Source of the DNA: Mytilus galloprovincialis | Lineage: Eukaryota > Mollusca > Bivalvia > Mytilida > Mytilidae | Reading direction: 5' to 3' | DNA length: 64,000 nt | NCBI RefSeq assembly: GCF_965363235.1 | Contig: NC_134841.1 | Location: 60,099,078 to 60,163,077, forward strand | Shown: in pieces, positions 5,732 to 64,000 of the stretch | Layout: each line of letters starts with the position of its first letter | Position numbering within the stretch: position 1 is the first letter of the stretch | Translations under genes and position numbers: made by a program | The notes under the pieces: model-generated | Database searches by the model: none | Seen by the model: the letters and a program-made list of their open reading frames with translations, nothing else | What the model was told of the DNA's origin: nothing

Positions 5732-6924
5732 ATAGTGAAGACATAATATTTGTTTTGGTCGTTAACTGTGATTAACTATTCCTCTGTTTATTCTGTCATT
5801 TTTGTGGCTCCAAATTACTGTACGTATGCCTTCATTTGATTCACATACGAAAAATGAATATTGAACTCATGATACAACACTTACTTAACGCTAAAAGATG
5901 CGTATATTACTGCCATTTCTCAATAAACGAGGAGGTTGACGAATGATCATGGAGAAGAAATAATGAATAAAGGCAACAGTAGTATACCGCTGTTCAAACT
6001 CATAAATCCATGGACAAAAAACAAAATCGGGGTAACAAACCAAAACCGAGGGAAACGCATAAATATAAGCGGAGAACAATGACACAACACCACAATGTAA
6101 CACACACAGAAACGGACCAAACATCAGACAAAATCCCACGAGAATAACAATATATCTGTATCTGTTCACTTTGATTATAAATTAAACATCTGGTGAAAGT
6201 CTGCTGCATCAATATGCATTATGGTAAATACCAACTACTAATATTTTTTTATTTTTTTATGACCGATGCACTTTCCTCGGATACCTCAGTGGAACATACG
6301 GCCCTCAAAATGAAAAGTTTTACACTGGTCATTTTAGGGCCCTTTACAGCTTGCTGTTCTCTGTAAGCAAATTACTACTTTGACCTATCCTCGTTTATCA
6401 GTTTCTTTGTTGTTACTTGGATTGGAGAGTTAAATTCGTTGCACTTATACCACATCTTCTGATTTATATAAACAATAATTATGGACATACGAAATTGTTT
6501 GTCTCATAAAAATGTATGAGAGATTATATACTTTATGTATATGTCTATCAAGAATCAAGTATTTTGTTCAGAAATATTTAGTGGTGATGTTGAAGTCACC
6601 CTGAAGTAAACCATATGTCTCCTTTCATTCGTCCTACAAATGTTCAGATTGATTTGATAAATAAGTTCGATAATTGAGAACACTCAAATTGGACATTAAA
6701 TGAAATATAAAAGTCGTTTATCAGCCGTTTGCTCTTATATATGTCAATGTCATTTTAAGATTACAATAGAACATGTGTATATGCTTTTCTTAGTTTTAGG
6801 TATGGATTATTATTATCGTGTCAAGGACGTTGAAGTGTATATGTTGTGTACAAATTATAATTTGTACAAAACAAAATTATAATAATTGTAATTCGTATTT
6901 TCAATTTGTAAAAAAGTGCAATTT

Positions 6925-7050
6925 GTACAAAAAGTGCTTGTACAGTTGATCTCCATTCGTTTGATGTGTTTAAGATTTTGATTTTTCCATTTGATTTAGG
7001 GATTTTTCTTTTTGATTTTTCCTCGGATTTCAGTATTTTTCTGAATTTAC
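6925..7050 (+). repeat. Dispersed repeat, CCATTCGTTTGATGTG family (fragment)
   Basis: Matches the middle and 3' part of copies at 8095-8250, 16915-17095 and 29130-29290 (cattcgtttgatgtgt, then catttgattt, then cctcggatttcagtattttt). Noncoding. Confidence 0.5.
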
Positions 7051-7439
7051 TTTTATTGACGATATTATAATGTGTAAACATTTGAATAACATTAACTGAT
7101 AAATTTTGCAATAATTTATACTATGAAATTTGTTATAAAAAGCACACTATATAATTCTTATTCAAAGGACTACACAGTAAACCTTATTTCAAAATACCAA
7201 AAAAGTGCTTTGTCCTTAATTGTTTGAGCATTTGAGTGAAATATGGCATTGGGAATTGTACAACCGTGAATAACGAATTGTCTTGAACATCTTCAATTTG
7301 ATTTCTCGACTTATATCATGTTGAAATACCTATTACGGTTCCCATGAGGTACCCCATATCTCCATATTCCATAATTACACCTAAGATAGTTAGAGGATGA
7401 GTTTGGGGACGACCATACTGCGGAATTAATATAATTACA

Positions 7440-22100: not shown

Positions 22101-25100
22101 GTGGTTTTGGGACGTCCAACTTTCCTTTTCCCTTCTGGTTTTTTTGTCAGTGTAACTGAACATATACACTGTTGGTATCCATCCTTAGTACATGACCAAT
22201 CCTTCTTCAATGCCGTTCTATTTATTCGTCATTTAGCTCTTTTGTTACAGCTCTTATGTGGAGGGTTTCGTTCGATATAGTATTGGGCCATCTTATTTTC
22301 AGTATATGTCTCAGACATCTATTTTGGAAGGTGTTTAATTTCTTTTTGTTTTGTTCAGTTGTTTTCCAGGTTTCAAATCCATACAGTAGTACTAATATAA
22401 CTAAGCTGTTAAATAATCTGACCGTTGTTTTAAATGACAGTACTGGTGATCTCCGTATTTTTCTTAATCTGATGAATTGGCCTTTAGCTTTCTTGAACAT
22501 TTTGTCCATGTCATTGTCACAGCCACTTTTAGTTGTAACTATTCCTCATAGATAAGTGAAGGTATCGACTTCCTCTGGGTCTTTCTCGTTTTACTTCACT
22601 GGGTTGTTATTTGTGGTGTTTATCTGCATTACTTTTGTTTTAATGTGTTTATCTTTAGTCCTATTTTGCTGGCATTTTCTCGAAGTTTACTTGTTTTCAG
22701 CTGTAAATGTTGGAATTTAGAAGATAGTAATGCTAGGTCATCAGCAAAATCAACGTCTTCAAGTTTAGTGGTAAATTTTCATATTATTCCTGTTTCATGG
22801 TTCCTTATTGTTTGCTTAATGACATAGTCAATGGCTAACAGAAATAAGAAGCCAGACATCATGCATTATTGTTTCACCCCATTTTTTACTTTAAACCATT
22901 CTGATTGTATTCCTTCGTCTATAACTGTACACTCAAATCAATCGTAAAAGTTTTATAACTGTGCTGAGTTTGTCTTGGATGTGATAAGCTTTTAAGATGA
23001 ACCATAAGCTTTCCCTAGGGATGGAATCAAACACCTTTTTAAAGTTTACAAAGTTGATATATAAAGGAGCATTCTGTTCAAACATTTTTCCATGATGTTT
23101 CTTCAAGTGAAGAGTTGTTTTATCGTGTTATTTATTCCCTCTTCTGAAGCCAGCTTGTTCTTGTCTTAGCTCTTCATCTATTTCTTCCAGTATTCTTTGG
23201 TTGATGATTTTTGTAAATACCTTGCTTGGCACAGAAAGTATTGTTATGCCTCTGAAGTTATCGCAAACCCGTTCGATCTCCTATAAACACAATACTTGAA
23301 TAAAAAGTAATGGGATGCTGGCCCTGTAATCAGACACATTTTAATAATACGTTTACATACATAAGTTCTTTTAAATTGTTTAATACTTCAATCTTACAAA
23401 ATCTCAGTTAAGAGACCTTAATGAAATAGCAATGGAGCCGAGTTATGTTCAAATTACTCATAAATTTTAGACGATTAAAGCATGTGTTTAAAAAAATATC
23501 GCACATTACTGATCATTACTTACCCGAGTGAGTCATTAATAGAATGAATGCGCTTTAAATTCTAGTCATGGTATCTATAATGTGTTTGTTTACAGAAGCT
23601 GAACAAAAGCTTTTGAAACGTTTACTATGATTTGATAATTCCATCACTTGAAAAGCTAAAAAACACGAGTTAAAGATAGATATATATGATTACATGTATG
23701 ATATATAATAAGGATAAAGAATATCATTTATGTTTTAATTAAGGGGCTTGACCTTTTGCTCAGCAGCCCCAACAATTTATTGTAAGCAACGACCATACAT
23801 TACGCAAATACAATTTTGTATGTTATACATTTTTGATTGTTTTATCAATAAGGGTATCTAAGATAATACGATTGATTCCAGTATACAATAAATTCGTTTA
23901 TTTTTAAAATGACACTGATGTTCGTGTCGTAGGAGTAATCCGGCGTTAACAGCATAGAAATATCTTCTTTAATAACTTTTGATACCCTAAAATTATGCCC
24001 CAATAACACACATTGGGTCGCTGCAACACATATTTAACGTCCCGACTGACGGGATAGATCTACTTACAAAAAAAAATAACAAACAAAGGAGTGACTGTTG
24101 CTCTTGTAATGTGTCTGATTTTTATTAAAATCAAACATTAGTTTCCGCATTGCCTGTTCTAGTATTTTTATCACCATCATAATATGTCTATGCCAAGAAA
24201 ACTAGAACTTCGATAGGTCAAACTGTTTTTTGTCCAACCCTAATGTGACACCTAGTTCCTAACAAACTTGGTTCAAACTTTTCTTCAATCATTTACAGTT
24301 CTGTATGCCCGCTTTACCGGTAACTTAACTAGAATTGTACTTGCAATTTGAGAAAGTCTGCGACTTTTATAAACAGTAAATTTGACGATGAAAGGCCCAT
24401 TGGTTTGCATTTATCAAAAGTGGAAAATGCCTTTAAATTTGAACTTAAATAAGTCGAACTCTTCGGGATAGAGAAATACTAATATAAAGGCTGAAAGTCA
24501 GTCTATCTTTGCTATTCCGCATTTTTCTTGTTTGTTCATAGTTTCTTGTACTTAATCAAATGACATATACAAGAGAGAAATATTTTCTCTATCAATAAAA
24601 CTATAGACATTCGTGCTGAGTTGGTATTTACATATGCTGAATGAGCCGCTTACCACTAGATGGCGATTTCATCTACACAAATCCAATCGGGGATAATCTT
24701 AAGTTAAGGATTACTCTATTTGATAAGGTGTCAGCAACTCTGCCTCACTCTTCATCCTTCAATTGTTTGAAGAAGCACACCATTTACCATTCTTCTTAGT
24801 TGGTTCATCTGAAGATCTTGTGTCGACTGAACTCTCTGATAAATAATCGTTTCATCTTCTTGTCGCTAGGATACATGATATGCATAATTATGTGTTATCG
24901 TGGCTAAAGCAAATATCTCCCTCGACAGAAACATCAGTTTCTTCAGATCATTAAATTATTTCTATACTGGAATAAATCGTATTAATTTCTGTTCAATCGT
25001 ATAATGTCTTTTCTTAATTTTATTTAACGACCAACTTCTTTTTGTATAAAACCAGGAGGGACTCGTAGGAGAGTTTAGCTTTTCTTAGCGGTACGATACC

Positions 25101-28100: not shown

Positions 28101-31100
28101 AACTTTGTAAGAGCAAATATTTATAACACAACATCCGTAACTTCATACCAGTACTGGCTACTAGGATGGTGATACCCTCTGTGACTATCAGTCAATCGGC
28201 AGAGGCAAACAAATATTCAATAGTCTTATACTATACTACCGTATATTATAACTAATTTTTTGAAAAATTGATGACCCTCTGTGCATCTTCTCCAAAATGT
28301 TAAAAAAACAAAGGAATATTTTTATCAACCTTAAGAATCATTTTTTGTTCTCGATAAAAATCATGTCATGTTAGGCTAATAGGTAAAATATCGAAATCCG
28401 ATAAATACTCAAAGTCCTTATTCAAATAACAAAATCAATAGCTCAAACGCATCGAACGGATAAATGGCATCTGTCTTATTCCTGAATTGATACAGGCATT
28501 GTCTTATGTAGAAAATTGTGGATTACACTTAGCTTTATAGCTAGCGAAACCTCTCACTTGATTGACAGTCGCATACAATTTCATTATATTGACAACGGTG
28601 TGTAAACAAAACAACAGACATAATAGGCAAAAATGTCAAAAATAGGGGTAGAGCAGTCAATATTGTGCTATAATCTTTTTCACTATAAAAACAAATAAAT
28701 ATGTAACAAAGAAACACAAATAGGCATATAGACAAGGCACATTATCAAAAAAGAAAGACAAACATACAAAAATGTACCGTAGCACATTAACACAATGACG
28801 GAATGTATAATTACAAAGCCACGACAAATGTAAAAGGCAAACAGACAAAGCAAATTAGCAAAAATGAGAGACAAGAATACTAAATTTTACCATAACAAAT
28901 AACACAATAACACAATGTATAAGTATATAATGGATATCACCAAAAACAAACAATGCAGTAAATATAATATTCATGATGACAAATACTTTATCAAGTTATT
29001 AATATAATAAACAACGTCAGTACCCATAATCTATACTTCATGACCATCGTATATTATTTGTGAAGTTGATACGGAAATAATTAACAAGGTCTTGGTACCT
29101 TTCGATAATTTTTTTTTAGAAAAAATAGAGACGTCATTTCACAATTTTCTACATTTGAAATGCCTGTACCAAGTCAGGAGTATGACAGTTGTTGTCCATT
29201 CGTTTGATGTGTTTCATCATTTGATTTTACCATTTGATTAGGGACTTTCAGTTTTGCATTTCGCTCGGAATTCAGTATTTTTGTGATTTTACATTTGCAT
29301 ACCCTTGGTTCGTCAACTTTCTACTCAGACACTGGTGACATTTTACAAAGTCGGAGTAGCAGCTGCAAGCTCTTGGGTACCGAATATGTTGGTAGTGTAT
29401 ATCTCATATGCAGGTTAAGTTGGTATATTGATACTCAGGTGGAGGAAATTGATATAGATTCTGGAACTGAAATGATTGCGTATGTCAAATTCGAGGTATG
29501 AGTCTAAAAATTGGCGTCGGAGGCCATGGATGTTGTTTCTGAGCGAAGTGTTCATGGGATCTGATCAAATGAGTAATGATTGTTAATGGAAAGAACAAAA
29601 TCAATATATATGTGTGTAAAACTCCAATTGTACGAGTTCCGCTATCTATTTATATCTATATATATGTTTATATCGCTTATATGGGCATCGGAGGTCAACT
29701 CAATATAAGGACAGTCTATTTGAAGATGTGTGTGACAAGGATGGTGGCCGTTAGAATTATAGTTGATTTCTAATCACCAAACCGATATACAAATGAACTG
29801 AGTGTATGCTTTGTGAGGAATAACTGGCATTTCAATAACTATTGCATCCTAAAACACATGTCTATAATAGATGGACTGGACTTAAATAAGCGAACCGGTT
29901 AAGTTAGCACTCCACAGTTAGGTGTGTAGTTTCGCATTTTGGCCCCTGTGGATTTTTCAAATATGAGAGCTAGTGTGCAATAAAATTCATTTTTGGATAG
30001 CTGAGTATTAAAATAGCCTTTGTATTGGGTTTATATGAACATCAAGGTTATGTAATGTATGTAATATAGGCTGTTTTCTGTATGACAGTCCGTATTTGCA
30101 TGTCCCTACCATACATTGGTCCGGCAATTATTGTAATGTTTTTTTCCAACTTTTTATCGCACGAACTTTGTGATTGGATTTTACGAAAAAATGAGGCGAA
30201 AGACACCCATTTTTTATTTGATCATTAGGAAGATTTATGAAAACAGTTTCTAAAAAGGTATCACTGAAAGGCATTGAAATTCTAGTTTGATCCAAATTTT
30301 GGGGCGATATGTGACATGTCCACCCCCCTTTTTGCAATATTTTATGGTAAATAAATGCAGAATGTTGCCATGGATACACATAAAAGGAATTAATTTTCAC
30401 TCTTTTAACTTTTGAAAATCAAATCTATGGAATATACTGATTACATACATATGCACATGTACAATACAAACAGTTAGGTTAATGTATAAGAAATCCAGGA
30501 ATAGGAGATGATAAAACATTTTGTGGCTCATTTTTAATTTTATTTTCTAACTGTGGAGTGCTACCTTATGGCACATCAGAAAGCACAGAAATGCACTTTT
30601 TAAGATAAAATTTACCACAAATCTTTAGTCTTTTATGTTCTTGTTTTAGTTCTGAAGGTAAAAAATCTGCTAGGAATGCAATTTATGTTTATTTTATTGT
30701 TTACTGTCCTTAGCAACCAAATATACACATTTTGACATTTAGACATGTTGCGGTCTTAAATTTGTACTCCATTAGCTTCACCATTGTAACCAAAGATTGC
30801 GCCTTATATGATATCCTCGGAATGTATCGCTTTATTTTTTTGAATGCAAATAAGTCAAATAAACATTTTTAGCAGGATTTTATATTATAATTTGGCATTA
30901 ATTAAGTTTAATGATGCCAGTCCTGCTAGAAATTTATACCCTGCTTGAGAGCTTCTAAACCAAGGTTAGGTATGCTATTTACAGCAAAATTTACCTATAA
31001 GTGCTTTCAAATACCTAAAAATTGTACAATTTGTCCTCTTTAAAGGTAATTTTATGATTTTAAATAAGATAATGGGAAAAGTTTTAGAAATTTACTCCAA

Positions 31101-34100
31101 AAATGAGACAGACTTGAAGTTTTTCACTATGATCCAGCATTTATTTTTAAATCACTTTTTGTCGCGTTTCAACATCAACTGCTAACCTTCATAAAATCTT
31201 TATTACTGAACCAATTTTAAAAACTAAGGTACCATTTTCATCGTAACAGCTAATAGAAAACAGAAAATATAATAAAAATTGAGGCAGGAGGGGAAAAATT
31301 TCACCTTATGGCACATCAGAAAGCACAGAAATGCACTTTTTAAGATAAAATTTACCACAAATCTTTAGTCTTTTATGTTCTTGTTTTAGTTCTGAAGGTA
31401 AAAAATCTGCTAGGAATGCAATTTATGTTTATTTTATTGTTTACTGTCCTTAGCAACCAAATATACACATTTTGACATTTAGACATGTTGCGGTCTTAAA
31501 TTTGTACTCCATTAGCTTCACCATTGTAACCAAAGATTGCGCCTTATATGATATCCTCGGAATGTATCGCTTTATTTTTTTGAATGCAAATAAGTCAAAT
31601 AAACATTTTTAGCAGGATTTTATATTATAATTTGGCATTAATTAAGTTTAATGATGCCAGTCCTGCTAGAAATTTATACCCTGCTTGAGAGCTTCTAAAC
31701 CAAGGTTAGGTATGCTATTTACAGCAAAATTTACCTATAAGTGCTTTCAAATACCTAAAAATTGTACAATTTGTCCTCTTTAAAGGTAATTTTATGATTT
31801 TAAATAAGATAATGGGAAAAGTTTTAGAAATTTACTCCAAAAATGAGACAGACTTGAAGTTTTTCACTATGATCCAGCATTTATTTTTAAATCACTTTTT
31901 GTCGCGTTTCAACATCAACTGCTAACCTTCATAAAATCTTTATTACTGAACCAATTTTAAAAACTAAGGTACCATTTTCATCGTAACAGCTAATAGAAAA
32001 CAGAAAATATAATAAAAATTGAGGCAGGAGGGGAAAAATTTCACCTTATGGCACATCAGAAAGCACAGAAATGCACTTTTTAAGATAAAATTTACCACAA
32101 ATCTTTAGTCTTTTATGTTCTTGTTTTAGTTCTGAAGGTAAAAAATCTGCTAGGAATGCAATTTATGTTTATTTTATTGTTTACTGTCCTTAGCAACCAA
32201 ATATACACATTTTGACATTTAGACATGTTGCGGTCTTAAATTTGTACTCCATTAGCTTCACCATTGTAACCAAAGATTGCGCCTTATATGATATCCTCGG
32301 AATGTATCGCTTTATTTTTTTGAATGCAAATAAGTCAAATAAACATTTTTAGCAGGATTTTATATTATAATTTGGCATTAATTAAGTTTAATGATGCCAG
32401 TCCTGCTAGAAATTTATACCCTGCTTGAGAGCTTCTAAACCAAGGTTAGGTATGCTATTTACAGCAAAATTTACCTATAAGTGCTTTCAAATACCTAAAA
32501 ATTGTACAATTTGTCCTCTTTAAAGGTAATTTTATGATTTTAAATAAGATAATGGGAAAAGTTTTAGAAATTTACTCCAAAAATGAGACAGACTTGAAGT
32601 TTTTCACTATGATCCAGCATTTATTTTTAAATCACTTTTTGTCGCGTTTCAACATCAACTGCTAACCTTCATAAAATCTTTATTACTGAACCAATTTTAA
32701 AAACTAAGGTACCATTTTCATCGTAACAGCTAATAGAAAACAGAAAATATAATAAAAATTGAGGCAGGAGGGGAAAAATTTCACCTTAAGGTAGCACTCC
32801 ACAGTTAGGTGTGTAGTTTCGCATTTTGGCCCCTGTGGATTTTTCAAATATGAGAGCTAGTGTGCAATAAAATTCATTTTTGGATAGCTGAGTATTAAAA
32901 TAGCCTTTGTATTGGGTTTATATGAACATCAAGGTTATGTAATGTATGTAATATAGGCTGTTTTCTGTATGACAGTCCGTATTTGCATGTCCCTACCATA
33001 CATTGGTCCGGCAATTATTGTAATGTTTTTTTCCAACTTTTTATCGCACGAACTTTGTGATTGGATTTTACGAAAAAATGAGGCGAAAGACACCCATTTT
33101 TTATTTGATCATTAGGAAGATTTATGAAAACAGTTTATAAAAAGGTATCACTGAAAGGCATTGAAATTCTAGTTTGATCCAAATTTTGGGGCGATATGTG
33201 ACATGTCCACCCCCCTTTTTGCAATATTTTATGGTAAATAAATGCAGAATGTTGCCATGGATACACATAAAAGGAATTAATGTTCACTCTTTTAACTTTT
33301 GAAAATCAAATCTATGGAATATACTGATTACATACATATGCACATGTACAATACAAACAGTTAGGTTAATGTATAAGAAATCCAGGAATAGGAGATGATA
33401 AAACATTTTGTGGCTCATTTTTAATTTTATTTTCTAACTGTGGAGTGCTACCTAAACCCCGCCCAGTCAAGTGAAATAAAACAATTAATAACCGGAAGTA
33501 ACTCCTCAGCGATAATTTAGAAATTTATGTTGAAACCTTCAATTATTGTTCTTTGATCATTTGGTTATTAATCAATTTAGTGATGTACGGCGGGGTATAT
33601 CGTTCGGGCATTCGGGCTCAAAAGCGGCTGTCAAACAGTGTCCGTGGAATAACTTGAAAACACTTTGACGAAATCATTTCGAAATTAGATATTTTTATAC
33701 ATAATGTTTTCTGGTCTGTGCGTTCGTTCGTTCGTCCGTTCGTCCGTCTGTCCCGCTTCAGGTTAAAGTTTTTGGTCGATGTAGTTTTTGATGAAGTTGA
33801 AGTCCAATCAACTTAGTACACATTTTCCCTTTAATATTATCTTTTTAATTTAAATGCCAATGAATTTTTACCCCATTTTTACGGTATACTGAACATAGAA
33901 AATTACAGTGCGGATGGGGCATCCGTGTACAAGGGACACATTCTTGTTTCCTTTGACTTAACGAAGGTCAAATTTGATTATCACGATCTGAGATTTTATA
34001 GTTGCTGATTTGTAGACATTTAAAAGTAGCGAAACGTTATACTAAGCGCGTTTTCTTTGCAATCGCTTATTTCTAAAAAAAAATCCTTTACCTTTTTTAG

Positions 34101-37100
34101 CTCACCTGGCCCGAAGGGCCAAGTGAGCTTTTCCCATCACTTGGCGTCCGGCGTCCGTCGTCGTCGTCCGTCGTCCGTCATCGTTAACTTTTACAAAAAT
34201 CTTCTCCTCTGAAACTACTGGGCCAAATTAAACCAAACTTGGCCACAATCATCATTGGGGTATCTAGTTTAAAAAATGTGTGGCGTGACGCGACCAACCA
34301 ACCAAGATGGCCGCCATGGCTAAAAATAGAACATAGGGGTAAAATGCAGTTTTTGGCTTATTACTCAAAAACCAAAGCATTTAGAGCAAATCTGACGCGG
34401 TAAAATTGTTTATCAGGTCAAGATCTATCTGCCCTCAAATTTTCAGATTATTCCGACAACCCGTTATTGGGTTGCTGCCCCTGAACTGGTAATTTTAGGT
34501 AATTTTTGCTGTTTTTGGCTATTATCTTGAATATTATTATAGATAGAGATAAACTGTAAACAACAATAATGTTCAGCAAAGTAAGATTTACAAATAAGTC
34601 AACATTACCAAAATGGTCAGTTGACCCCTTTAGGAGTTATTGACCTTTATAGTCAATTTTTAACCATTTTTCCTAAATCTTAGTAATCTTTTACAAAAAT
34701 CTTCTCCTCTGAAACAACTGGGCCAAATTAATCCAAACTTGGCCACAATCATCTTTGGGATATCTAGTTTAAAAAATGTGTGGCGTGACCCAGTCAACCA
34801 ACCAAGATGGCCGCCATGGCTAAAAATAGAACATAGGGGTAAAATGCAGTTTTGGCTTATAACTCAAAAACCAAAGCATTTAGAGCAAATCTGACAGCGG
34901 TAAAAGTGTTTATCAGGTCAAGATCTATCTGTCCTGAAATTTTCAGATGAATCGGACAACCTGTTGTTGGGTTGCTGCCCCTGAATTGGTAATTTTAAGA
35001 AAATTTTGCTGTTTTTGGTTATTATCTTGAATATTATAATAGATATAGATAAACTGTAAACAGCAACAATGTTTAGCAAAGTAAGATTTACAAATAAGTC
35101 AGCATGACCAAAATGGTCAGTTGACCCCTGAAGGAGTTATTGCCCTTTATAGTTAATTTTTAACATTTTTCAAAAATTTTTGTTAATTTTTAGAAAATAT
35201 TTTCCACTGTAATTACTGGGCCAAGTTCATTATAGATAGAGATAATTGTAGCAACAAGAATGTTCAGTAAAGTAAGATCTACAAACACATCACTATCACC
35301 AAAACACAATTATGTCATGAATTTATCCGTGTCCATTGTTAAATATGCACAAGACTAAGGTGAGCGACACAGGCTCTTTAGAGCCTCTAGTTTTACCTGA
35401 TCCTGTTTTTGAGTGAAAATTGGCAAATATCATTTCATTCAATGAATTCCGGTTTGCTGTCATTTTGACGGTCTCGTGTTAAGTTTTGTTTTAATTGTAT
35501 CTATGTCTTCCGTAGCTATGCAATTTTCCCCCTTCTTCTTTAATCCATTCTATTTTAAATTTTAGTTTCTTGTGTATAATTCGGAGTTTAGTATGACGTC
35601 CATTATCACTGTACTATTATGCATATTTTAGGGGCCAGCTGAAGGACACCTACGGGTGCGGGAATTCTCGCTACATTGAAGACCCATTGGTTGCCTTCGG
35701 CTGTTGTTTGCTCTATGGTCGGGTGGTTGTCGCTTTGACATATTCACCATTTCCTTTCTCAATTTTAATGTAGATTTTCTTGTTTAAAAGCAAGAACATC
35801 GTAAATTGTTGTTTTAGTTCCTGTCTTTTCTTTTGATTGTTTGAGAATTGTTCTTTGTAAATTTTATCCCAAGAAAATAGAATGGATCCAGGAAAAAGTA
35901 TTAACAAAATTACTGAACTTGACGGTAAATCAAAAATAGGTGAATTCCACAATACCTGAAAAATAAATGTTACTTTCCGAATACCTTTCATCAATAACAC
36001 TAAAAAGCAAAACATATAAGAGTCATACGAATTTATACAAAACTATGTTAGGTTAAATACTAGTAAATCAAATCAAATCAAATAATTTTATTGGTGTAAA
36101 TTCCTATACAGACATGCTACCAGCCGACATTTACAAAATACAAACACAAAAATAAACAAACAAACAAACAAAAACAACCAAACATATTTTCTCAATGATC
36201 ATGATAAGAGATACATATTTTATATTTACATAGCGTGGAGGTGTTATTCATACAATATTATTAATTCCAGCCATTACAATCAGCTTTAATACTATAAAAG
36301 CTCTTAACAACATTATGTTTGCTTTAAATGAATGTTCAAATCATACATATCGCTTATTCCAGCTTCACTTACAGTACTCATGTCCGTATCATTACTTTTC
36401 AAAATGAAACTAAACTTATATTGTTCACACATATTAACAAAAGATGGAACTATATCACTTAAATTACAAAAGAGTACATTTCTATTAAGTTCTAACGCTT
36501 TACATTGAATGAGGAAATGGAACTCATCTTCAATTCCATCCTTACAAATTGGACAAATTCTCTGTTCTAAAGGTGTTCTAGTATATCTACCAACTTCTAT
36601 TAGTAATTTACTATTACTAATTCTGATTTTTATCATATTAGAAATAACACTTTTGTTAAGGTCTAGTAGAAGATATTTTTCTAATTCAAAATTATTTTTA
36701 ACTTTGCGATATGTTCTTAGTTTATTACCATGACTATTACCATTAAAAGAGTCACAAAAAAGAGCTTGTTTCCAGTATTTTATGAATTCCTCTTCTAATT
36801 TCTTTTGAAATGAAAAAAAGTAATTTTTTCTTTGACATAGTATTTTGATTTTCCCAGACATGCTGAAAACCAAGTTTACCTAATAAAACTTTTAATTTAC
36901 TACAAAAACCATTAGGAAAGTTTAAGTTTTCATTGTATGCTTTCTTTACCATACTCTCACTGTCCCTATTAATGATATGAAGCCAGAAGTTAATTGTATT
37001 TTAAGGGCTGACAATGAAAGTGGAATCAAAGGCATAAATAGCGTTTGTAATACCAAGTGTTCGACATAAAGTTTTTTTATTATTATTATTTACAGTATTA

Positions 37101-42402: not shown

Positions 42403-43062
42403 AAAAGAGGGACGAAAGATACCAAAGGGACAGTCAATCTCATAAATCCAAACAAACTGACAACGCCATGGCTAAAAATGAAAAAGACAAACAGAAAAAC
42501 AATAGTACACACGACAGAACATAGAAAACTAAAGAATAAACAACACGAACCCCACCAAAAACTAGGGGTGATCTCAGGTGCTCCGGAAGGGTAAGCAGAT
42601 CCTGCTCCACATGTGGCACCCGTCGTATTGCTTATGTGATTACAAATCCGGTAAATAGTCTAATTCGGTAGGTCATATTCATGAAAGGGAAGGGGATTGT
42701 AGTTACGACGTAAGGAACATATCCGATATCATTTGTGAAACGGTTATTCCATAACGGTCAACCAACTCGTGATGGCGTCCGTAAAATTTACGAAGGGATG
42801 ATTTCAACTTCACCATTTGGAACTCTTGGTTTAATAGCTTCCTTGTGAGCAGCAAACCTCTATCAAGAAAATCATGATAGGAAATGCAAGCACGGGAATA
42901 TCGTATCAATTGGGAGATATATACCCGTATGCAGGTGCTGCTGGAATGTTGCTACTTAGAAATGGAAAGTTCACAATTGGAAAGCTGAAATCATCTCTTT
43001 TGTCGTAAAGTTTTGTTTTCAACCGACCCTCATTGTCAATTTCTAGATGTAAGTCAAGATAT
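42403..43062 (-). mobile_element. Retroelement 3'-end fossil, copy 1
   Basis: Noncoding in effect. The minus strand reads a recognisable reverse-transcriptase C-terminal tail (RKLLNQEFQMVKLKSSLRKF, FYGRHHELVDRYG) followed by a long 3' tail. The tail type resembles a Penelope-like or related retroelement; I cannot settle the family. It is a broken, 5'-truncated relic. Copies at 44339-45020 and 62295-62900 have the same orientation and limits, suggesting one family truncated at a similar place. Confidence 0.6.
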
Positions 43063-43670
43063 GTTAGATATAACCTAACATCATTTTCAATATATAGTGA
43101 ATTTTTATAGTAACTCCTTCGTCATTTATACAAATATGTGCCCAATAATTTATTTATAAGTGCAATACTTCCCTATAGCCTGTATAAACTGCGAAGTTGT
43201 ATTATTTAAAGAAAACAATACATATTTTCCATGGAAAAAGCGACTAAAGGACACATTATATGTTTATTGTGTAACAATTCAACTGATGTTAATTGTTTCC
43301 CTGTCACCTACACGGAACTGCACATCAGCTTCATTATGTGAAGAAAGCAGGCGACAAAATAATATTTAGCAAAGAAAAGGTGTCAATAACCAAACAAATT
43401 GTTGAGGGTTGAATTATTTAAATCTTTAAAGCTACCCGTGTTGTCAGTTTGAACAAATAATGACAACTGTTTAAGACTAATTATGCAGAGAATAATTATG
43501 TACTATATAAAGAATATAATTATGATTATTATAACTTGCAAAAATCAGTCAAGAATGTTTATGATATATAAAATCCCTTAAAGATCACCTCTCAAGTGTT
43601 CTTTTGTATGAAATTGAATTACTCCTTTTACAAAAGTTTGAGATCGTCCGTACATTGTGCGTCGTTTAAA

Positions 43671-44338: not shown

Positions 44339-45020
44339 AAAAGAGGGACGAAAGATACCAAAGGGACAGTCAAACTAATAAATCTAAAATAAACTGACAA
44401 CGCCATGGCTAAAAATGAAAAAGACAAACAGACAAACAATAGTACAATAACACAACATATAAAACTAAAGAATAAACCCCACGAACCCCACCAGAAACTA
44501 GGGGTGATCTCAGGTGCTCATAAGGATAAGCAGATCCTGCTCCTCATGTGGCACCCGTCGTGTTGCTTATGTGATAAAAAATCCGGTAAAGAGTCTAATT
44601 CGGTAGGTCACATTCATGAAAGGGAAGGGGATTGTAGTTATCCGATATCATTTGTGAAACGGTAATTCCATAACGGTCAACCAACTCGTGATGGCGTCCC
44701 GTAAAATTTACGAAGGGATGATTTCAACTTTACCATTTGGAACTCTTGGTTTAATAGCTTCCTTGTGAGCAGCAACCCTCTATCAAGAAAATCATGATAG
44801 GAAATGCAAGCACGGGAATATCGTATCAATTGGGAGATATATACCCCGTATGCAGGTGCTGCTGGAATGTTGTACTTAGAAATGAAAAGTTAACAATTGG
44901 AAAGCTGAAATCATCTCTTTGTCGTAAAGTTTCGTTTTCAACTGACCCTCATTGTCAATTTCTAGATATAAGTCAAGATATGAGGCCGACTTAACTGTAT
45001 CTGTAGTATCCTTTATCTCT
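44339..45020 (-). mobile_element. Retroelement 3'-end fossil, copy 2
   Basis: Closely similar to copy 1 over about 660 bp, same orientation. Broken relic without a usable reading frame. Confidence 0.6.
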
Positions 45021-57600: not shown

Positions 57601-57963
57601 TGAAACTGAATTCTAAATAAAAGCACACTTTTGTGTTGTACAGTACTAACGTGTGATCTGGTAGTTTGTCATGTTTGGTGTTTCAATTTTGAGGTGCACT
57701 GTTTTTAAATGTTCATGTTTATATATTTAAACAAATTCACTACAATTTTTTTTATCTTGCAGGTCCAGTGGTTTGGTACCAGAAATTTGAATATGCTATT
57801 GGACATTGGTTGCAAAAATCAGCAGAACACGTTTTTGGTTGTGTATTGTGTAGCCCTGGATGTTTTAGTCTCTTCCGAGCCAAAGCTTTGATGGACGACA
57901 ATATTATGAGGACGTATGCCAGTATGCCAACAGAACCAAAACATTACTTGCAGTATGATCAAG
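45657..57963 (+). CDS. Chitin synthase paralogue C, 3' partial (11 of probably 12 coding exons)
   Basis: Exons 45657-45691, 46120-46345, 46774-46911, 47455-48341, 49894-50082, 52041-52165, 52701-52800, 53357-53510, 55292-55417, 55711-55846 and 57763-57963 join in frame to 772 codons plus one base. From the second exon onward intron positions and phases equal those of B. Motifs: nine N-terminal membrane segments, CATMWHE (472-478), DGDVDF (670-675), GRIKPGGSG and EYAIGHWLQKSAEH (715-728). EDRW, QRRRW, SWGTRE and the C-terminal membrane segments would be on the missing last exon, expected past 64000, since B's equivalent intron is 10.1 kb. It differs from B by an extra 5' coding exon (MESEDQGRKRI) and a shorter outer loop. 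A truncated gene lacking the last exon cannot be excluded from this window. Confidence 0.93.
45739..46025. mobile_element. Tc1/mariner-like deletion derivative, C intron 1
   Basis: Starts after TA with TACTGACAGACTTTAG, matching the left terminus of 48788-49650. It follows that element through cttacct and ttgaagtcgtac-type segments, then jumps to gagacatgtttacggcc.caacg and ends near TCAGTA. An internally deleted relative of about 290 bp with no transposase. Confidence 0.6.
46120..46345 (+). CDS. Paralogue C coding exon 2
   Basis: Encodes residues 12-87: GLSNGKMNYWDIFRKDVSEN, then the first membrane segment (VVAYLVFFFLVFGGSIV). Ends TCA|gtgagt in phase 0, as B exon 1 does. Confidence 0.92.
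46774..46911 (+). CDS. Paralogue C coding exon 3
   Basis: Encodes residues 88-133 (KDAIAYYLLFILTIPDAVKL). Same 138-nt length and phases as B exon 2. Confidence 0.92.
47020..47164 (+). repeat. ~30-bp minisatellite, 5 units
   Basis: GTATTTCAACTAACAAYAAT plus GAATGAGTGA is repeated about five times in C intron 3 with small deletions in later units. A GATGAT microsatellite follows at about 47317. Confidence 0.85.
47455..48341 (+). CDS. Paralogue C coding exon 4
   Basis: Encodes residues 134-429: VVKECLHMFCLG, LLQAAAVCAVPLY, SVRWFETYF, STLVTSFCRLLL, then an outer loop with NST and three cysteines, then ICFCVALALGAPVYVGII and WLSQLWICRHIWYSPHNR. About seven membrane segments. Ends TAC AA|gtgagt, phase 2. 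Confidence 0.95.
48788..49650. mobile_element. Tc1/mariner-like element, 863 bp, C intron 4
   Basis: Ends are TACTGACCGACTTTA... and ...TAAAGTCGGTCAGTA, an inverted repeat of about 27 bp with mismatches, flanked by TA on both sides as Tc1/mariner insertions are. Plus-strand reading gives fragments such as SVTRIRLRNVICETCLRPQR that resemble the helix-turn-helix part of Tc1 transposases, broken by stops. At 863 bp it is shorter than an intact Tc1 and is a dead or nonautonomous copy. Confidence 0.7.
49894..50082 (+). CDS. Paralogue C coding exon 5
   Basis: Encodes residues 429-492 (LFVLPHYCSPIADISLLHSR, then VYICATMWHENRTEMKQ). One codon shorter than B exon 4. Borders tacag and CAG|gtatgt. Confidence 0.95.
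50083..52040. other. Paralogue C intron 5
   Basis: No gene or known element is recognised in about 2 kb. A weak internal duplication (ctatccctttctc with following ttacca, near 50465 and 50633) is the only structure noted. Confidence 0.4.
52041..52165 (+). CDS. Paralogue C coding exon 6
   Basis: Encodes residues 492-534 (RLDMDQAAREIAKYEVKVPT, then RDYYKFE). Ten residues longer than B exon 5. Phase 2 to 1. Confidence 0.92.
52701..52800 (+). CDS. Paralogue C coding exon 7
   Basis: Encodes residues 534-567 (AHILFDDAMETIEGKREPNE, then FVKQLMEIVTEAGT). Phase 1 to 2. Confidence 0.93.
53357..53510 (+). CDS. Paralogue C coding exon 8
   Basis: Encodes residues 567-618 (VVTPYGGRLNYTLPGENKL, then KIRHKKRWSQ). 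Same length as B exon 7. Donor CAG|gtaaaa. Confidence 0.94.
53511..55291. other. Paralogue C intron 8
   Basis: AT-rich. A 39-bp-spaced duplication of ctagagattaagaaggctaa lies at 54680-54740, and a piece of the retroelement 3'-end family may lie near 54775-54850. No gene is seen. Confidence 0.45.
55292..55417 (+). CDS. Paralogue C coding exon 9
   Basis: Encodes residues 619-660 (IMYMYYLLGYKLVEKE, then LFQALPKDIVQQ). Phase 0 on both sides, as B exon 8. Confidence 0.93.
55711..55846 (+). CDS. Paralogue C coding exon 10
   Basis: Encodes residues 661-706 with MALDGDVDFSPKALQLLIDR and GRIKPGGSG. The donor is gtatta, weaker than the gtaagg of B, and a hAT element begins 10 nt after the exon. Confidence 0.95.
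55857..56792. mobile_element. hAT-type nonautonomous element, 936 bp
   Basis: Ends TAGTGTTGTCAA and TTGACAACACTC form an 11-bp perfect inverted repeat (the outermost base differs), fitting the hAT TAGNG terminus. Flanks ATTAAAAT (55849-55856) and ATTAAAAA (56793-56800) look like an 8-bp target duplication with one change. Subterminal ACCGAATACCGAATACC and CGGTTAATCGGTTAATCGG repeats are typical of hAT binding sites. Inside, the frame 56254-56514 (SYFKRKANPKTVKIQSECNQ, then IHQFKLKH) resembles a decayed BED zinc finger, the N-terminal domain of hAT transposases; the catalytic part is absent. Confidence 0.8.
57480..57575 (-). repeat. Dispersed repeat, AATGAGACAACTCTCCACAA family (reverse copy)
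   Basis: Contains aaggccgtatggtaacct and gagagttgtctcgttggcaa, the reverse of the family core. Confidence 0.6.
57763..57963 (+). CDS. Paralogue C coding exon 11 (last in window)
   Basis: Encodes residues 706-773 (VVWYQKFEYAIGHWLQK, GCVLCSPGCFSLFRAK, EPKHYLQYDQ). It ends CAAG|gtatta in phase 1, so it must continue into an exon starting with the GEDRW block, which does not occur before 64000. Confidence 0.95.
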
Positions 57964-58298
57964 GTATTATTAACCCTTGTCGTATTTATGTCTTACATGA
58001 GTTTATGTTATCACAACAAATGACAGCATGCCAATAGAACATAAACATGATCCGTCGTATGGAAAATTTCATAATACTGTACAATGTTATCCCTTATGAA
58101 TGTGTCTCACGGATTTATAACCGTTATTGACTATTATGAGTTAAATGACCCATTCAAATGAGGAAACAAACTGAAAATACAAGTAAAATTCATTTATTTA
58201 AACTCTACATCTGTTAATATTTTGAAAGAACATATCAATATAATGACACAACGACAGTTTCAGTTTGTGTTGAAATATCTCGAATATATTTTGATGCA

Positions 58299-58304
58299 TT
58301 TATT
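58299..58304 (-). promoter_or_regulatory. Poly(A) signal of the nested minus-strand gene
   Basis: AATAAA on the minus strand, 21 nt after the stop codon. Confidence 0.65.
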
Positions 58305-58324
58305 CAGACTGATATATCTGGATA

Positions 58325-58445
58325 TTACTTGTGGCAGCAGCAGTAGTTTGGTCCACAATATGTGGCAGAACATCCACCGTATCCATACAAATGTGCAACA
58401 GAATATGGATAAGCATATAGATGCAGAGCGTTGAAACATTTCAAA
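58325..58445 (-). CDS. Nested gene exon 3 (end of Cys module)
   Basis: Acceptor tttatgtttcag, 121 nt, phase 2 to stop TAA. Encodes LKCFNALHLYAYPYSVAHLY, then GYGGCSATYCGPNYCCCHK. Confidence 0.8.
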
Positions 58446-61271
58446 CTGAAACATAAATGAAATTCTAAGATAAGTAAAACAGCTTCAAAGTCGGATTCAC
58501 AAGAAATATGACATGTTATTTTTACCGAAATGTGACCTACATAGTTAGACTTATTATTGGGTTTGTACTAACGTGAGCCACACGACGGGTACCACATATG
58601 AAGCAAGATCTGCCTTACCTTCCGGAGCACCTGAGTTTTTGGTGGAGTTCGTGTTGTTCAGTCTTCATTTTTCTATGTTTTGTTTGATGTTTTGTTCATT
58701 GTGTTGTTGGGTTTCTTTAAATCTTTTTTAGCCATGGCGTTGTAAGTTTATTTGCAACTAATGAGTTTGAATGTCCATTTAGGTATTTTTCGCCTCTCTT
58801 GAATATCGAACATTAACAAATAAGTTACTATGGGAAATGTTAATTTATTTCACAAATTCAAAATAAAATTCATATTTATTAAGTGAGCAAACAAACAATT
58901 TATGTCAATCTTTTCGTCTTGAATATGTATGGTATAAATGCCACGAAAGGTAAACAAGCATCACTCGTTTTGGTCCAAAGTCTTCCCTTTGACCTTTAGT
59001 GCCAGGCATAATTTGTTAAATGAAAAACAATGAAAGTTAGCTAACAAAATATCGAAGTTTGTTCATTAAATGAAATGTTACTTCAAATGCAACTACACAC
59101 TTAAAAAAAAAATCATTTGATGCAAAAATGTGCTATAGTACTTGTTTGATTGTCATTTTCGATTGTCGTTTTAAGTTTATCAGCTGACACTTAATTTCCC
59201 TTTTGGAAAATGTCTTTACAATTTATCCTATTGTTTATATCGTTATCTTCTATATATCAATACCTGGCATTTGCTCCCTTGCAGATGGTTTCACACGTTG
59301 TCTGGCTGCTACAATTCCGTCTGACCGATCTGATTTGACCACTACTGCTCCCCGTGATTCCAAGGCACATAGACAATGCACGGTCATCTTTTCGACGTGG
59401 TTCTGTTAAATACAAAACAAAATTTAGAAATTGATTAAAATGAACTGACTGTCTCATTAGCAGTCATACCACATCCAATTTATCTTCTTTTTTTTTGGAC
59501 TGAGTTGGATGATTTGATGTTAAAGTATAATTTACGTTTTCATTTGATTTTGAAATAACGCAGTATTTACGTACGCCTAAAGTACTATTTTAGATAACCT
59601 TTATGGAACAAACGAAAGGTGTTTGTCTTTTGACCTGAAACTCTGAAATGCTTAATTAAGTGCATATCTCTGTCACAATTGTCGCTTGTCCAGATTTTTA
59701 TTTCAATCAAAGGTCTGAAGTACTGAACATCGGAAGACCGCAAGTTATATTGGATTATGAATAAATGACATTATCCTGATTTAGAGTAATTTCTCGCAAT
59801 TTGATTGGCTGATTTTATCCTAACATATTTCAGTACATTTTTATTACGTCAATTGGAACTATCTCCCTTTTACCATTGACTTAATAAAAAAAAATGAATT
59901 GCTTTATAGTCCTCATATTTTTAATTTTTCACAATTTTAGATTCAATATCTAAAATATATTTGGTTGATATTGTTCTTATATTGAATTTGAATATGATAA
60001 TATGTAATATAACAAAATAAGGATAAATGCGTTACACAGTGTGCAATTGTCCTAATACGAAATTACTGCAATACGGAATTTATCGGGTCAATAAAATTCT
60101 CATATTAGGACAATTGCACACTGTGTAACTAATAATATGATACCTGCCAGACAGATACGTTCACCTTACAATTATTCGATACACTTGATTTAAATGAAAT
60201 GTTCATTCCAAAACACAATTTTCGGTATGTTTACATAGATATTTATGATTTTTTATTGGTATGTTCCGGTATTTCTCACGACAAAACTTTTTCCACATTT
60301 TTAATTCATGTTCTTCAAAAATATTCTCACTAGTATTCATTGAAGAAATGAATTGAACAGCGATAACGAAATCAATGTTATTTTGCACCCGATAATATCT
60401 GCGTATTTATTCGAAATACGTTCGATTATCAGTCAAAAGGCCAAGGGGCCTCTGCAGAAATTTCTGAAGGAACATAACACTGGTATGGTCTCTTAAGGTC
60501 ACATCCAATGTAAAAATAACAAAGAAATGTGAAAAAATATTGCCTACACTGGCAAAACAAATGGCTTCTTTCTGTTATTTTCTACTCGAAAATGAAAGAA
60601 AGTGAATGGACTTATATTTACATCCTTCTTTGTTTGATATCAGGTATTTTACTAGTCTGTGAGACAGTATTGTTATATATTAACATTCCCGTACTTTTCA
60701 AGGCTTTTCCTGGAGACAGTCCACAGAAAGAAATTTTTTCCTAAACGTACACATTATTCTTAAACCAAACTGATCGACATGTGTTTTTACTCATAAACGT
60801 TATGGTTTGGTGGAGATGAAGCACGTATTTTAAAGTCTTTCGTTTTACCATTTTTCAAATAGATACAAATAATAGCTCGTTTAAGTATATAAAATCATAT
60901 TTGAAATCATCATCTCGTAAAAAGAACTCATTTATATTACCTTTTTCTAAAATCCGTGCATCAGTAATCCGTTTTATATCATCAGTTATGTTGACTTTCA
61001 GATTCGTTTTCACGTTATCAATATATCGCTTTACGTCTTCCTCCAAATGCAATGCTGTAAGAACCTCTTCTAATTTCATCTTCACCAGACCTTCCATCTT
61101 TTTCTCCATTGCTTCACTAACATATTCTTTGACACGCTTATTGGCATTCGACAAATCGAGGGTGGCAACTAGTGGCGCATTGTTATTATCAAGTAATGGT
61201 GCGTCGACTCTGTCACTGACGGCATTTGTAAGTGTGTTTGAAGCCAAAAGAAAGAATACAATGACAATCAT
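58325..61271 (-). CDS. Secreted ten-cysteine protein, complete, nested antisense in paralogue C
   Basis: Three exons (61271-60941, 59402-59264, 58445-58325) with AG/GT borders join in phase to 591 nt, 196 aa. Residues 1-19 are a clear signal peptide (MIVIVFFLLASNTLTNA). Residues 40-110 are charged and helix-prone, perhaps a coiled coil, with one N-glycosylation site (NIT, 94-96). A basic EPRRK at 111-115 could be a processing site. Residues 119-196 form a cysteine-rich module with Cys 123, 141, 147, 151, 160, 182, 187 and 192-194, ending CGPNYCCCHK. Ten cysteines suggest five disulphides and an extracellular product. I do not recognise a characterised family; I have an unverified impression that similar end modules occur in predicted bivalve proteins. 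Possible roles (defence peptide precursor, shell or mucus matrix) are guesses. TATA-like box and poly(A) signal are in place, so the gene looks intact. Confidence 0.8.
59264..59402 (-). CDS. Nested gene exon 2 (first half of Cys module)
   Basis: Acceptor tttaacag, donor GCCAG|gtattg, 139 nt, phase 1 to 2. Encodes EPRRKDDRALSMCLGITG, then QIRSVRRNCSSQTTCETICK. Composition is far less AT-rich than its surroundings, as expected of an exon. Confidence 0.8.
60030..60128. mobile_element. MITE-like hairpin, ~100 bp
   Basis: Arms of about 27 bp (GTTACACAGTGTGCAATTGT... and its reverse complement near 60101-60128) are essentially perfect around a loop of about 43 bp. It lies in intron 1 of the nested gene's reverse path. 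No coding content. Confidence 0.7.
60941..61271 (-). CDS. Nested gene exon 1 (signal peptide and helical region)
   Basis: Encodes residues 1-110 and ends AAAAG|gtaata in phase 1. The start is the ATG at 61271; no earlier in-frame ATG lies close by. The peptide has KRVKEYVSEAMEKKMEGLVK and EEDVKRYIDNVKTNLKV with regular hydrophobic spacing. Confidence 0.85.
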
Positions 61272-61479
61272 CTTCACCTTTAACGGGAATTTGCTCTAAA
61301 ATATATGGGAACCTTGCCTTCAAATCCTTTATAGACATTGTCCGGAAATGTTATTGTGATTTCTATATAAGTGTTGTGTTTAGTTTTGAAATAATTGTCG
61401 ATTCTCCTTAAAAACAACAATAATATGTTATCATCCTTCAACTTTCGAGAAGATCTCCAATCCAACTGTAGTGCTGATA

Positions 61480-61487
61480 CTTATAAA
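61480..61487 (-). promoter_or_regulatory. TATA-like box of the nested gene
   Basis: Minus-strand TTTATAAG, about 210 nt before the ATG. It would place a start site near 61456 and give a 5' UTR of roughly 185 nt. Confidence 0.45.
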
Positions 61488-61820
61488 TGAATTGATATTT
61501 TCCTATATTAATGGCTAACACTTTATTACAGTTAAGTTGTTTACCTCTTATATGATATATACAATAGATTATGATTGCGCTTAGGAAGTATAACAAAATT
61601 CTTCTTTTTTAAGGGCATCAAAGTAATTCTTTTTCATTATGGTTCATAAAAATAATAGTTTGTTTGTGTCCTTAACTGTTTACAAAACTTTTGAATTTTT
61701 GAAAAACTAAAGCTTTACTACCTCCGGAATAGATTACCTAAGATGTATTTATGCTCTTCAACTTCGTACTTTATTTGGCCTTTTTAACTTTTTTGGATTC
61801 GGGCGTAACGGATAAAAGAA

Positions 61821-62285
61821 ACTCATCATAGATACCAGGACTAAATTTTGTATATACGCCATACGCGCGTTTCGTCTACAAAAGACTCATCAGTGACGCT
61901 CGAATAAAAAAAAAAGTTTAAAAGGCCAAATAAAGTACGAAGTAGAACCCCGTTCGCACTAAGGACCAAAATTCCTAACAGTTATGCCAAAAATACAGCT
62001 ATGGTAATCTATGTCTGAGATAGAAAAGCCTTAGTTTTTCAAAACTTCAAAATTTTGTAAACAGTTAATTTATAAATATAAACATATCAATGATAATTCA
62101 TGTCAGCACAAAAAAAAGTGCTGACTATACTGGGCTTGTGATACCCTCGGGGAAATAAATCTCCACCAGCATGGCATCGACCCAGTGGTTGTAAATAAAC
62201 TCATCATAGATACCAGGACTAAATTTTGTATATACGCCAGACGCGCGTTTCGTCTACAAAAGACTCATCAGTGACGCTCGAATCA
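61821..62285 (+). repeat. AGACGCGCGTTTCGTCT family, one full 378-bp unit plus start of a second
   Basis: actcatcatagataccagga occurs at 61821 and again at 62199, a 378-bp period. The interval includes tggtgataccctcgggga and catcgacccagtgg, which also occur near 27660-27720. This shows the dispersed fragments elsewhere derive from a tandem-capable unit. Confidence 0.75.
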
Positions 62286-62294
62286 AAAAAAGTT

Positions 62295-62900
62295 AAAAAG
62301 AGGGATGAAATATACCAGAGGGACAGTCAAACTCATAAATCGAAAATAAACTGACAACGCCTTGGCTAAAATATAAAAGGACAAACAGACAAACAATAGT
62401 ACACACGACACAACATAGAAAACTAAAGAATAAACAACACGAACCCCACCAAAAACTAGGGGTGATCTCGGGTGCTCCGGAAGGGTAAGCAGATCCTGCT
62501 CTACATGTGGCATCCGTCGTGTTGCTAATGAGATAACAAATCCGGTAAATAGTCTAATTCGGTAGGTCACATTTATGAAAGGGAATGGGATTGTAGTTAC
62601 GACGTAAGGAACATATCCGATATCATTTGTGAAACAGTTATTCAATAAAGGTCAACCAACTCGTGATGGCGTCTGTAAAATTTACGAAGAGATGATTTTA
62701 ACTTTACCATTTGGAACTCTTGATTTAATAGCTTCCTTGTGAGCAACAACCCTCTATCAAGAAAATCATGAGAGAAAATGCAAGTACGGGAATATCGTAT
62801 CAATTGGGAGATATATTCAACGTATGCAGGTGCTGCTGGAATGTTGCTACTTAGAACTGGAAAGTTCACAATTGAAAAGCTTACATAATCTCTTTTGTAG
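62295..62900 (-). mobile_element. Retroelement 3'-end fossil, copy 3
   Basis: Minus strand reads YISQLIRYSRTC, LLLTRKLLNQEFQMVKLKSS and RRHHELVDLY, the same reverse-transcriptase tail as the copies at 42403 and 44339, then a long 3' tail. Broken relic; family Penelope-like or related, unsettled. Confidence 0.6.
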
Positions 62901-63199
62901 ACGAAACGCGAGTCTGGCGTAAATACAATCTTTAATCATGTTATGTATGATGAGTTTATTTACAAAACAAAACATTCTGTCATATCTATATAGATGCTTT
63001 GTATCGGTTAGTGCGACAGTAACTCAATTTTGCATATGACAAACAGTTCACAAAAACTCCATGTACATGACAGAACGGGTAAACTTATGTCAGTTGTTGT
63101 CTTGCAATAAATACTACATAATGTTACAAATTACACAGTTATGTTTTATTGAAGATCGTGCAAGTTGGGTTTTTTCCTTTGATTCATGCATGTTTGTCA

Positions 63200-63340
63200 T
63201 CTTTATACACAGTTGGGCCCTTTATAGTTTACTGTTCTGTGTGAGCCGAGGCTTCGTGTTGAAGGCCGTACTTTGACCTATAATTGTTTACTTTTTATAC
63301 ATTGTGACTTGCGTGAAAAGTTCTCATACCACATCTTATT
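63200..63340 (+). repeat. Dispersed repeat (gaaggccgtactttgacct family)
   Basis: Contains ggccctttatagtttactgt, gttgaaggccgtactttgac and acattgtgacttg. Related fragments occur near 6335-6460 and 40410-40480. Noncoding. Confidence 0.5.
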
Positions 63341-64000
63341 ATTTCTACTTGAAATGTGTTTATCATTACTTTTATGGAAATAATTGAATATCCCTCCATA
63401 AAATAAAAATGTCTTTCCGTCAAACAAAATTCTATTACCTGATATCAAAACATTTCAGTTATCCTGCTACCTAAAAATTTATTTCTGCTAGGCTCGATAA
63501 TGTACTGTAAATTCATTCTAGAAATCGGGTATCAAACAAATTTTTGCCATAAAGTGTTGTTTGCAATAGAATCTTGAAAGTTCAATTGTATAGACTATTA
63601 TGATTTATCAGTGTGAACACATTTAAACCAAAATTGCAGTTTGAAATCATGTAGTTGTCTAAAGCAAGTTATTGTATACGAATATGGCGCAAATACAACA
63701 GGTTGGGGACAACCCGCCAAATGGGGAACTATTCCACAAATGAGTAACAACCCCTCATTTGAGTAATCATTTCATAGTGCTAAAAACAATATTTTCTAAA
63801 AATAGGTCTTTTTAGTTAAAATGGCACTAATTTATAGAAAATGGAACAACTTCTTCTCAAGAACAATATTTTTAATATGGATTTTATAAAAGTTAGTAGC
63901 CTTGAAAATAGTCAAATTTTCAAAATGTTCACATGCTTGTATCTTCTCAATAAATTAAGATAGGGATGATCATCTTTTAGAAAATATGGTGCATTTTTCA

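Follow-up and report, generated by a model that had tools for sequence, protein, structure and literature searches.

What kind of protein is encoded by a small gene lying antisense in an intron of a chitin synthase gene of Mytilus galloprovincialis, and does its position there carry any meaning? The gene lies in a window of 64,000 nucleotides (NC_134841.1, positions 60,099,078 to 60,163,077), which is the whole stretch of DNA analysed and to which positions without a contig name refer. The initial annotation had joined three minus-strand segments into a protein of 196 aa, and its coordinates, splice sites, and phases were all verified. Coding exon 1 (60941..61271, minus strand) encodes residues 1-110 and the first base of codon 111, with a putative signal peptide, called from hydrophobicity alone, and a long helical stalk; coding exon 2 (59264..59402, minus strand) carries the EPRRK linker and the first four cysteines of a ten-cysteine domain; and coding exon 3 (58325..58445, minus strand) carries the last six cysteines, the CGPNYCCC end, and the stop codon (58325-58327). 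Spliced in silico at GT/AG sites in phases 1 and 2, the exons give 591 nt, that is 196 aa plus the stop, with cysteines at residues 123, 141, 147, 151, 160, 182, 187, and 192-194. The proposed signals are also present on the minus strand, namely TATAAA as a possible core promoter (61333-61328) and AATAAA as a possible polyadenylation signal (58304-58299), both being consensus matches only. The trio is unlikely to be a chance join of open frames because relatives of each exon occur elsewhere in the genome, with 56% identity for the best relative of exon 1 (E 1.5e-25), 56% for exon 2 (E 1.9e-7), and 74% for exon 3 (E 1e-9). With the spliced frame verified and the signal peptide called as above, the locus is probably a secreted ten-cysteine gene, as had been proposed. 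Intron 1 also holds a high-copy, MITE-like repeat of ~380 bp with inverted end sequences (59760-60138), for which the genome gave 6209 first-look candidates, 40 of them scored.

Exon 1 is, judged by its relatives, the exon for signal and stalk in C1q genes of the coiled-coil type (type II), since two of its stalk kin run into C1q exons via phase-1 junctions. A genome search with the whole protein (matches at E <= 10, 150 of 175 candidates scored) returned at least 147 matches, comprising 132 mainly to exon 1, 13 to exon 3, and two to exon 2. The stalk exons of loci L010 and L013 are 58% and 55% identical to exon 1, respectively. At L013, a Pfam C1q domain (E 8e-14) follows within 1.5 kb of the stalk exon, and at L010 one was seen (E 8e-20) once 5 kb more DNA was taken in; read by eye, both junctions between stalk and C1q are of phase 1, as in the first intron of the nested gene. 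Downstream C1q exons were sought in 15 stalk loci with a flank of ~1.5 kb (seen in one, L013) and in the extended L010 (seen). Three weak stalk matches (C5:44483264, C8:58053036, and C5:27333726; E 0.03 to 1.8) likewise have a same-strand C1q match less than 3 kb downstream. In the genome at large, C1q gave 1055 candidates, and 150/150 scored were over the cut-off; in the 196-aa protein there was no C1q match, and the best match of a C1q query within 57001-72000 reached only E 0.69.

The helical region noted earlier was reproduced by AlphaFold2, which predicts one long helix (residues 40-109) for exon 1 alone in single-sequence mode (mean pLDDT 69.7, pTM 0.32). No clean heptad was seen in the stalk, the strongest period being 4.0, and a periodicity of the 3.5 type was equalled in 147 of 5000 shuffles for this stalk and in 684 of 5000 for L010. 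Against four stalk kin, dN of exon 1 was 0.33-0.39, with silent sites saturated. A cluster of stalk exons lies at C5:21.4-22.0 Mb (L022-L038 in part), several of them with internal repeats of ~24 residues.

The other part of the protein, the ten-cysteine head, passed the cut-off of no Pfam family and found nothing credible in NCBIfam, the matches being sub-threshold only; a profile search of the PDB gave no match, and another search for a solved relative gave a single weak hit to a helix (E 1.8). Defensins and macins, like every other Pfam-A family, stayed below the cut-off and were rejected as its family. The statement that the protein belongs to no named family thus stands for the end module, which matches none of the curated families searched, and falls for exon 1 with its kin among the stalks of C1q-domain proteins.

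Within the same genome, the head has many relatives. A search with the head exons returned 20 matches, namely the gene's own two exons, 13 more copies of exon 3, exon 2 of a sister gene, and four weak ones; the 13 copies are located on contigs C4, C13, C6, and C2, and the C13 cluster gave ten exon-2 matches. The six cysteines of exon 3 are kept in 14/14 aligned copies, this gene included and two weak matches (C13:52893186 and C6:72776717) left out, and the four cysteines of exon 2 are kept in 5/5; splice phases are consistent among the copies read by eye. The copies on C6 (L048) and C2 (L051) have a near-identical, signal-like exon of 13 codons with a phase-1 donor; in the same scan, L050 on C13 had none that was convincing. 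On this exon order, the plain form of the head is a predicted signal exon, exon 2, and exon 3. Among the other copies, dN/dS exceeded 1 in three pairs, two of exon 3 and one of exon 2, on few sites (for example, L042/L050 3.17 and L048/L051 2.19), in a comparison of chosen exon-3 pairs and all pairs of five exon-1 and five exon-2 rows. Four weak matches on C8 (C8:937481, C8:996866, C8:3556033, and C8:3527658, L056) cover the first half of the domain only and are perhaps a diverged branch of it. The head is presumably common among predicted proteins of other invertebrates as well.

The sister gene, 0.2 Mb away (exon 2 at C4:60383344-60383478, exon 3 at C4:60369907-60370035), resembles the nested gene in the EPRR linker and in the 3' flank and, upstream of the same head, carries four or more small stalk exons of phase 1-1. 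Queries with the nested gene's stalk (first exon at E 1.6e-4) and with the sister exons themselves detected these, the last of which resembles the end of exon 1 in DNA (73% identity, E 1.5e-4); a partial scan of 31.5 kb upstream found no sister signal exon. A C1q-type stalk exon and the ten-cysteine head therefore stand in one frame, across a phase-1 junction, in two genes. Since both partners meet at a phase-1 intron, the reading frame survives when C1q is replaced by the ten-cysteine head. The simplest reading of these exon structures is a single fusion, which phase-1 exon shuffling would have produced ahead of the split between the two genes.

On the sequence evidence, the nested gene is probably functional, encoding a stalked binding protein. 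This product would be secreted via the putative signal peptide, the stalk would assemble it into oligomers, a role that has been proposed for the type II C1q proteins, and the head would bind a ligand outside the cell, with sugars and microbial surfaces as the most likely targets. The gene could instead be a decaying or unspliced fossil, with exon 1 as a C1q stalk exon gone astray and exons 2 and 3 in no working transcript, and the stalk family does include broken copies, with stops in L032 and L035. Here, however, each of the three exons has an open frame and the right phase, ten of ten cysteines are kept, and in the 3.1 kb that precede exon 2 no alternative first exon resembling a signal peptide passed a scan. 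Moreover, dN does not exceed dS between the nested and sister genes, dN/dS being 0.19 for exon 2 (dS 1.5) and 0.52 for exon 3, on 23-30 synonymous sites per exon pair and with exon 2 near saturation. We consider a fossil very unlikely.

A cationic precursor of antimicrobial type would give the same exons another meaning, the stalk being a propeptide and a cut at PRR(K) freeing the ten-cysteine peptide. The charge of the head (10 K+R vs 3 D+E in a stretch of 85 residues), the PRR directly before it, kept in the sister gene, and the small signal-peptide-plus-head proteins among the other copies all agree with such a precursor. The basic EPRRK site of the initial annotation is indeed present, spanning the exon 1/2 junction, but PRR is missing in the aligned copies on C6, C2, and C13, so a processing site there is possible and weakly supported. 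In addition, exon 1 is kin to C1q stalks and not to a known propeptide, the head matches no antimicrobial family of Pfam, and its bacterial counterparts, described below, include heads fused behind other domains. This alternative to a stalked binding protein is thus unlikely, though less so than a fossil.

The head also occurs in bacteria. A scan of genome_contigs (84,980 species, two short peptide patterns only) gave 36 stretches, of which six encode a relative, and in 6/6 records the domain is C-terminal and the frame unbroken. The head is preceded by a signal-like start only in L068 and L069, by a long repetitive part in L067 (a record cut by the contig end), by a membrane-and-helix part in L070, and by DUF3011 in L071 and L072 (2/6). 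Among 16 neighbouring genes examined, 11 had a Pfam match: DNA polymerase III alpha beside L067, XendoU and integrase core near L068, FGE-sulfatase and OmpA near L069, iron-sulphur and cyclase proteins near L070, sulfotransferase and glycosyltransferase near L071, and pyruvate kinase and aminotransferase beside L072. Because of these neighbours, the surroundings of L067, L069, L070, and L072 are clearly bacterial; the bacterial setting of L068 and L071 is less certain. On L068, an XendoU endoribonuclease with a sub-threshold lamin-tail domain (6028-7275) lies beside the Thiotrichales copy of the head.

Mussel and bacterial heads have in common the ten cysteines in order and a C-terminal CGPN(Y/F)CCC, and 15 columns, including all ten cysteines, are invariant across ten aligned head sequences. 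A profile built from bacterial heads only scored the nested gene's protein at E 1.2e-8 (the best of 200 head shuffles reached 3.1) and for a further three mussel heads E ran from 6e-8 to 3.5e-15; this is a check of similarity and not an independent discovery because the bacterial heads had been found with mussel heads. The initial annotation had missed these copies and the many relatives in the same genome. In a tree of ten heads, mussel and bacterial sequences split with a support of 94/95, below the starred level of the tool, on very long branches; the tree is unrooted and gives no direction for any transfer. The head was rare in the sampled bacterial genomes (2/369 and 1/385, all three among the six known; at most 13 candidates scored per genome), and searches of viral contigs, plasmids, and phages, limited to patterns or a single query, found no copies. 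AlphaFold2 gave a mean pLDDT of 47 for the six bacterial heads.

The idea of a lectin comes from the two bacterial heads of six that follow DUF3011, a domain linked to sugar binding, the first characterised member of which is a galacturonic acid-binding lectin of the sea hare (PMC5484111, in part). By analogy from domain company only, the head may perhaps bind sugar, and the stalked protein may perhaps be lectin-like. The nested gene nevertheless differs from DUF3011 lectins (Aplysia AKL) and bacterial DUF3011 proteins, in that its ten-cysteine domain is distinct, with no Pfam match, and its protein is without DUF3011. A further-reaching reading, to which we give appreciable but clearly less than even weight, is that the head represents an undescribed, probably lectin-like family that passed laterally between aquatic bacteria and molluscs and was captured onto a C1q stalk, giving a stalked recognition class without C1q. 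In the searches of Pfam, NCBIfam, and PDB the head had no credible match, yet bacterial copies occur sporadically, which makes it a candidate on two counts, as an extracellular binding domain not yet described and as a case of gene exchange of animals with bacteria.

Among known systems, the secreted type II C1q-like proteins of bivalves, composed of signal peptide, coiled-coil tail, and C1q (PMC6835236, in part), are similar in the signal and the stalk exon (kin at 55-58%) and in the phase-1 junction to the head exon, whereas the nested gene lacks C1q and has the ten-cysteine head instead. Chimera-type mytilectins and SUEL/C1q fusions are likewise bivalve binding proteins with combined domains, but the domains are others, and the parts of these sources considered describe no stalk-plus-ten-cysteine fusion; for brachiopod mytilectins, exon shuffling has been suggested as the source of a signal peptide (PMC10744619; PMC6835236, both in part). 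In the literature searched (main texts), the string GPNYCCC was found in no paper, and titles and abstract starts revealed no recognisable stalk-plus-head fusion. Stalked C1q proteins and nested genes are known kinds; the head swap and the unlisted head make this gene a variant of them. Bivalves use very large C1q families for microbe recognition, and a different head at the position of C1q points to a stalk exon that can be reused, the ten-cysteine domain being a candidate second head.

As to position, three chitin synthase genes lie in tandem within the window and an 8-kb flank, and the gene nests in the third copy. Its antisense nesting was borne out by mapping of the host intron (plus strand, phase 1) to 57964-64930 (6,967 bp), which therefore ends beyond the window (window part 57964..64000); the chitin synthase exon before it (57747..57963, plus strand) has its start placed from similarity and not from a mapped acceptor, and Chitin_synth_2 matches at C4:60156854 and C4:60163998 lie either side of the nested gene. 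Such nesting could matter through co-expression with chitin synthase in shell-forming tissue or through transcriptional interference, which has been reported for nested genes (PMC3192792, in part). However, the window holds no second copy of the gene, which is hence absent from those parts of the first two chitin synthase copies that lie within it, and the sister gene is not in a chitin synthase within the 44 kb examined (C4:60371000-60414999, no match to ten chitin synthase exons). The relatives on C6, C13, and C2 also lie away from the 50 Chitin_synth_2 matches listed in the genome, none of which is on C6 or C13 and of which the nearest on C2 is separated by ~35 Mb from the head copy there. 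A functional tie to chitin synthase or shell, as suggested at the outset, thus found no backing, and we hold it to be highly improbable, the least probable of the alternatives weighed. The nested position looks accidental and is not common to the relatives examined; the intron would be merely where this copy of a stalked binding protein gene sits. Drosophila 2mit is likewise a complete gene in an opposite-strand host intron (PMC3786989, in part), and compared with such genes nothing special was found about the nested ten-cysteine gene.

Within the second chitin synthase copy, the large intron holds direct repeats at 740-bp spacing that are identical in translation (30563-32787). Two open frames, at 36313-36873 and 22222-22509 (minus strand), we take to resemble the ends of non-LTR retrotransposon polyproteins. 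A dispersed element is present in three copies (42451-43063, 44388-44982, and 62328-62898), the last of which has a counterpart near the sister gene with 87% identity.
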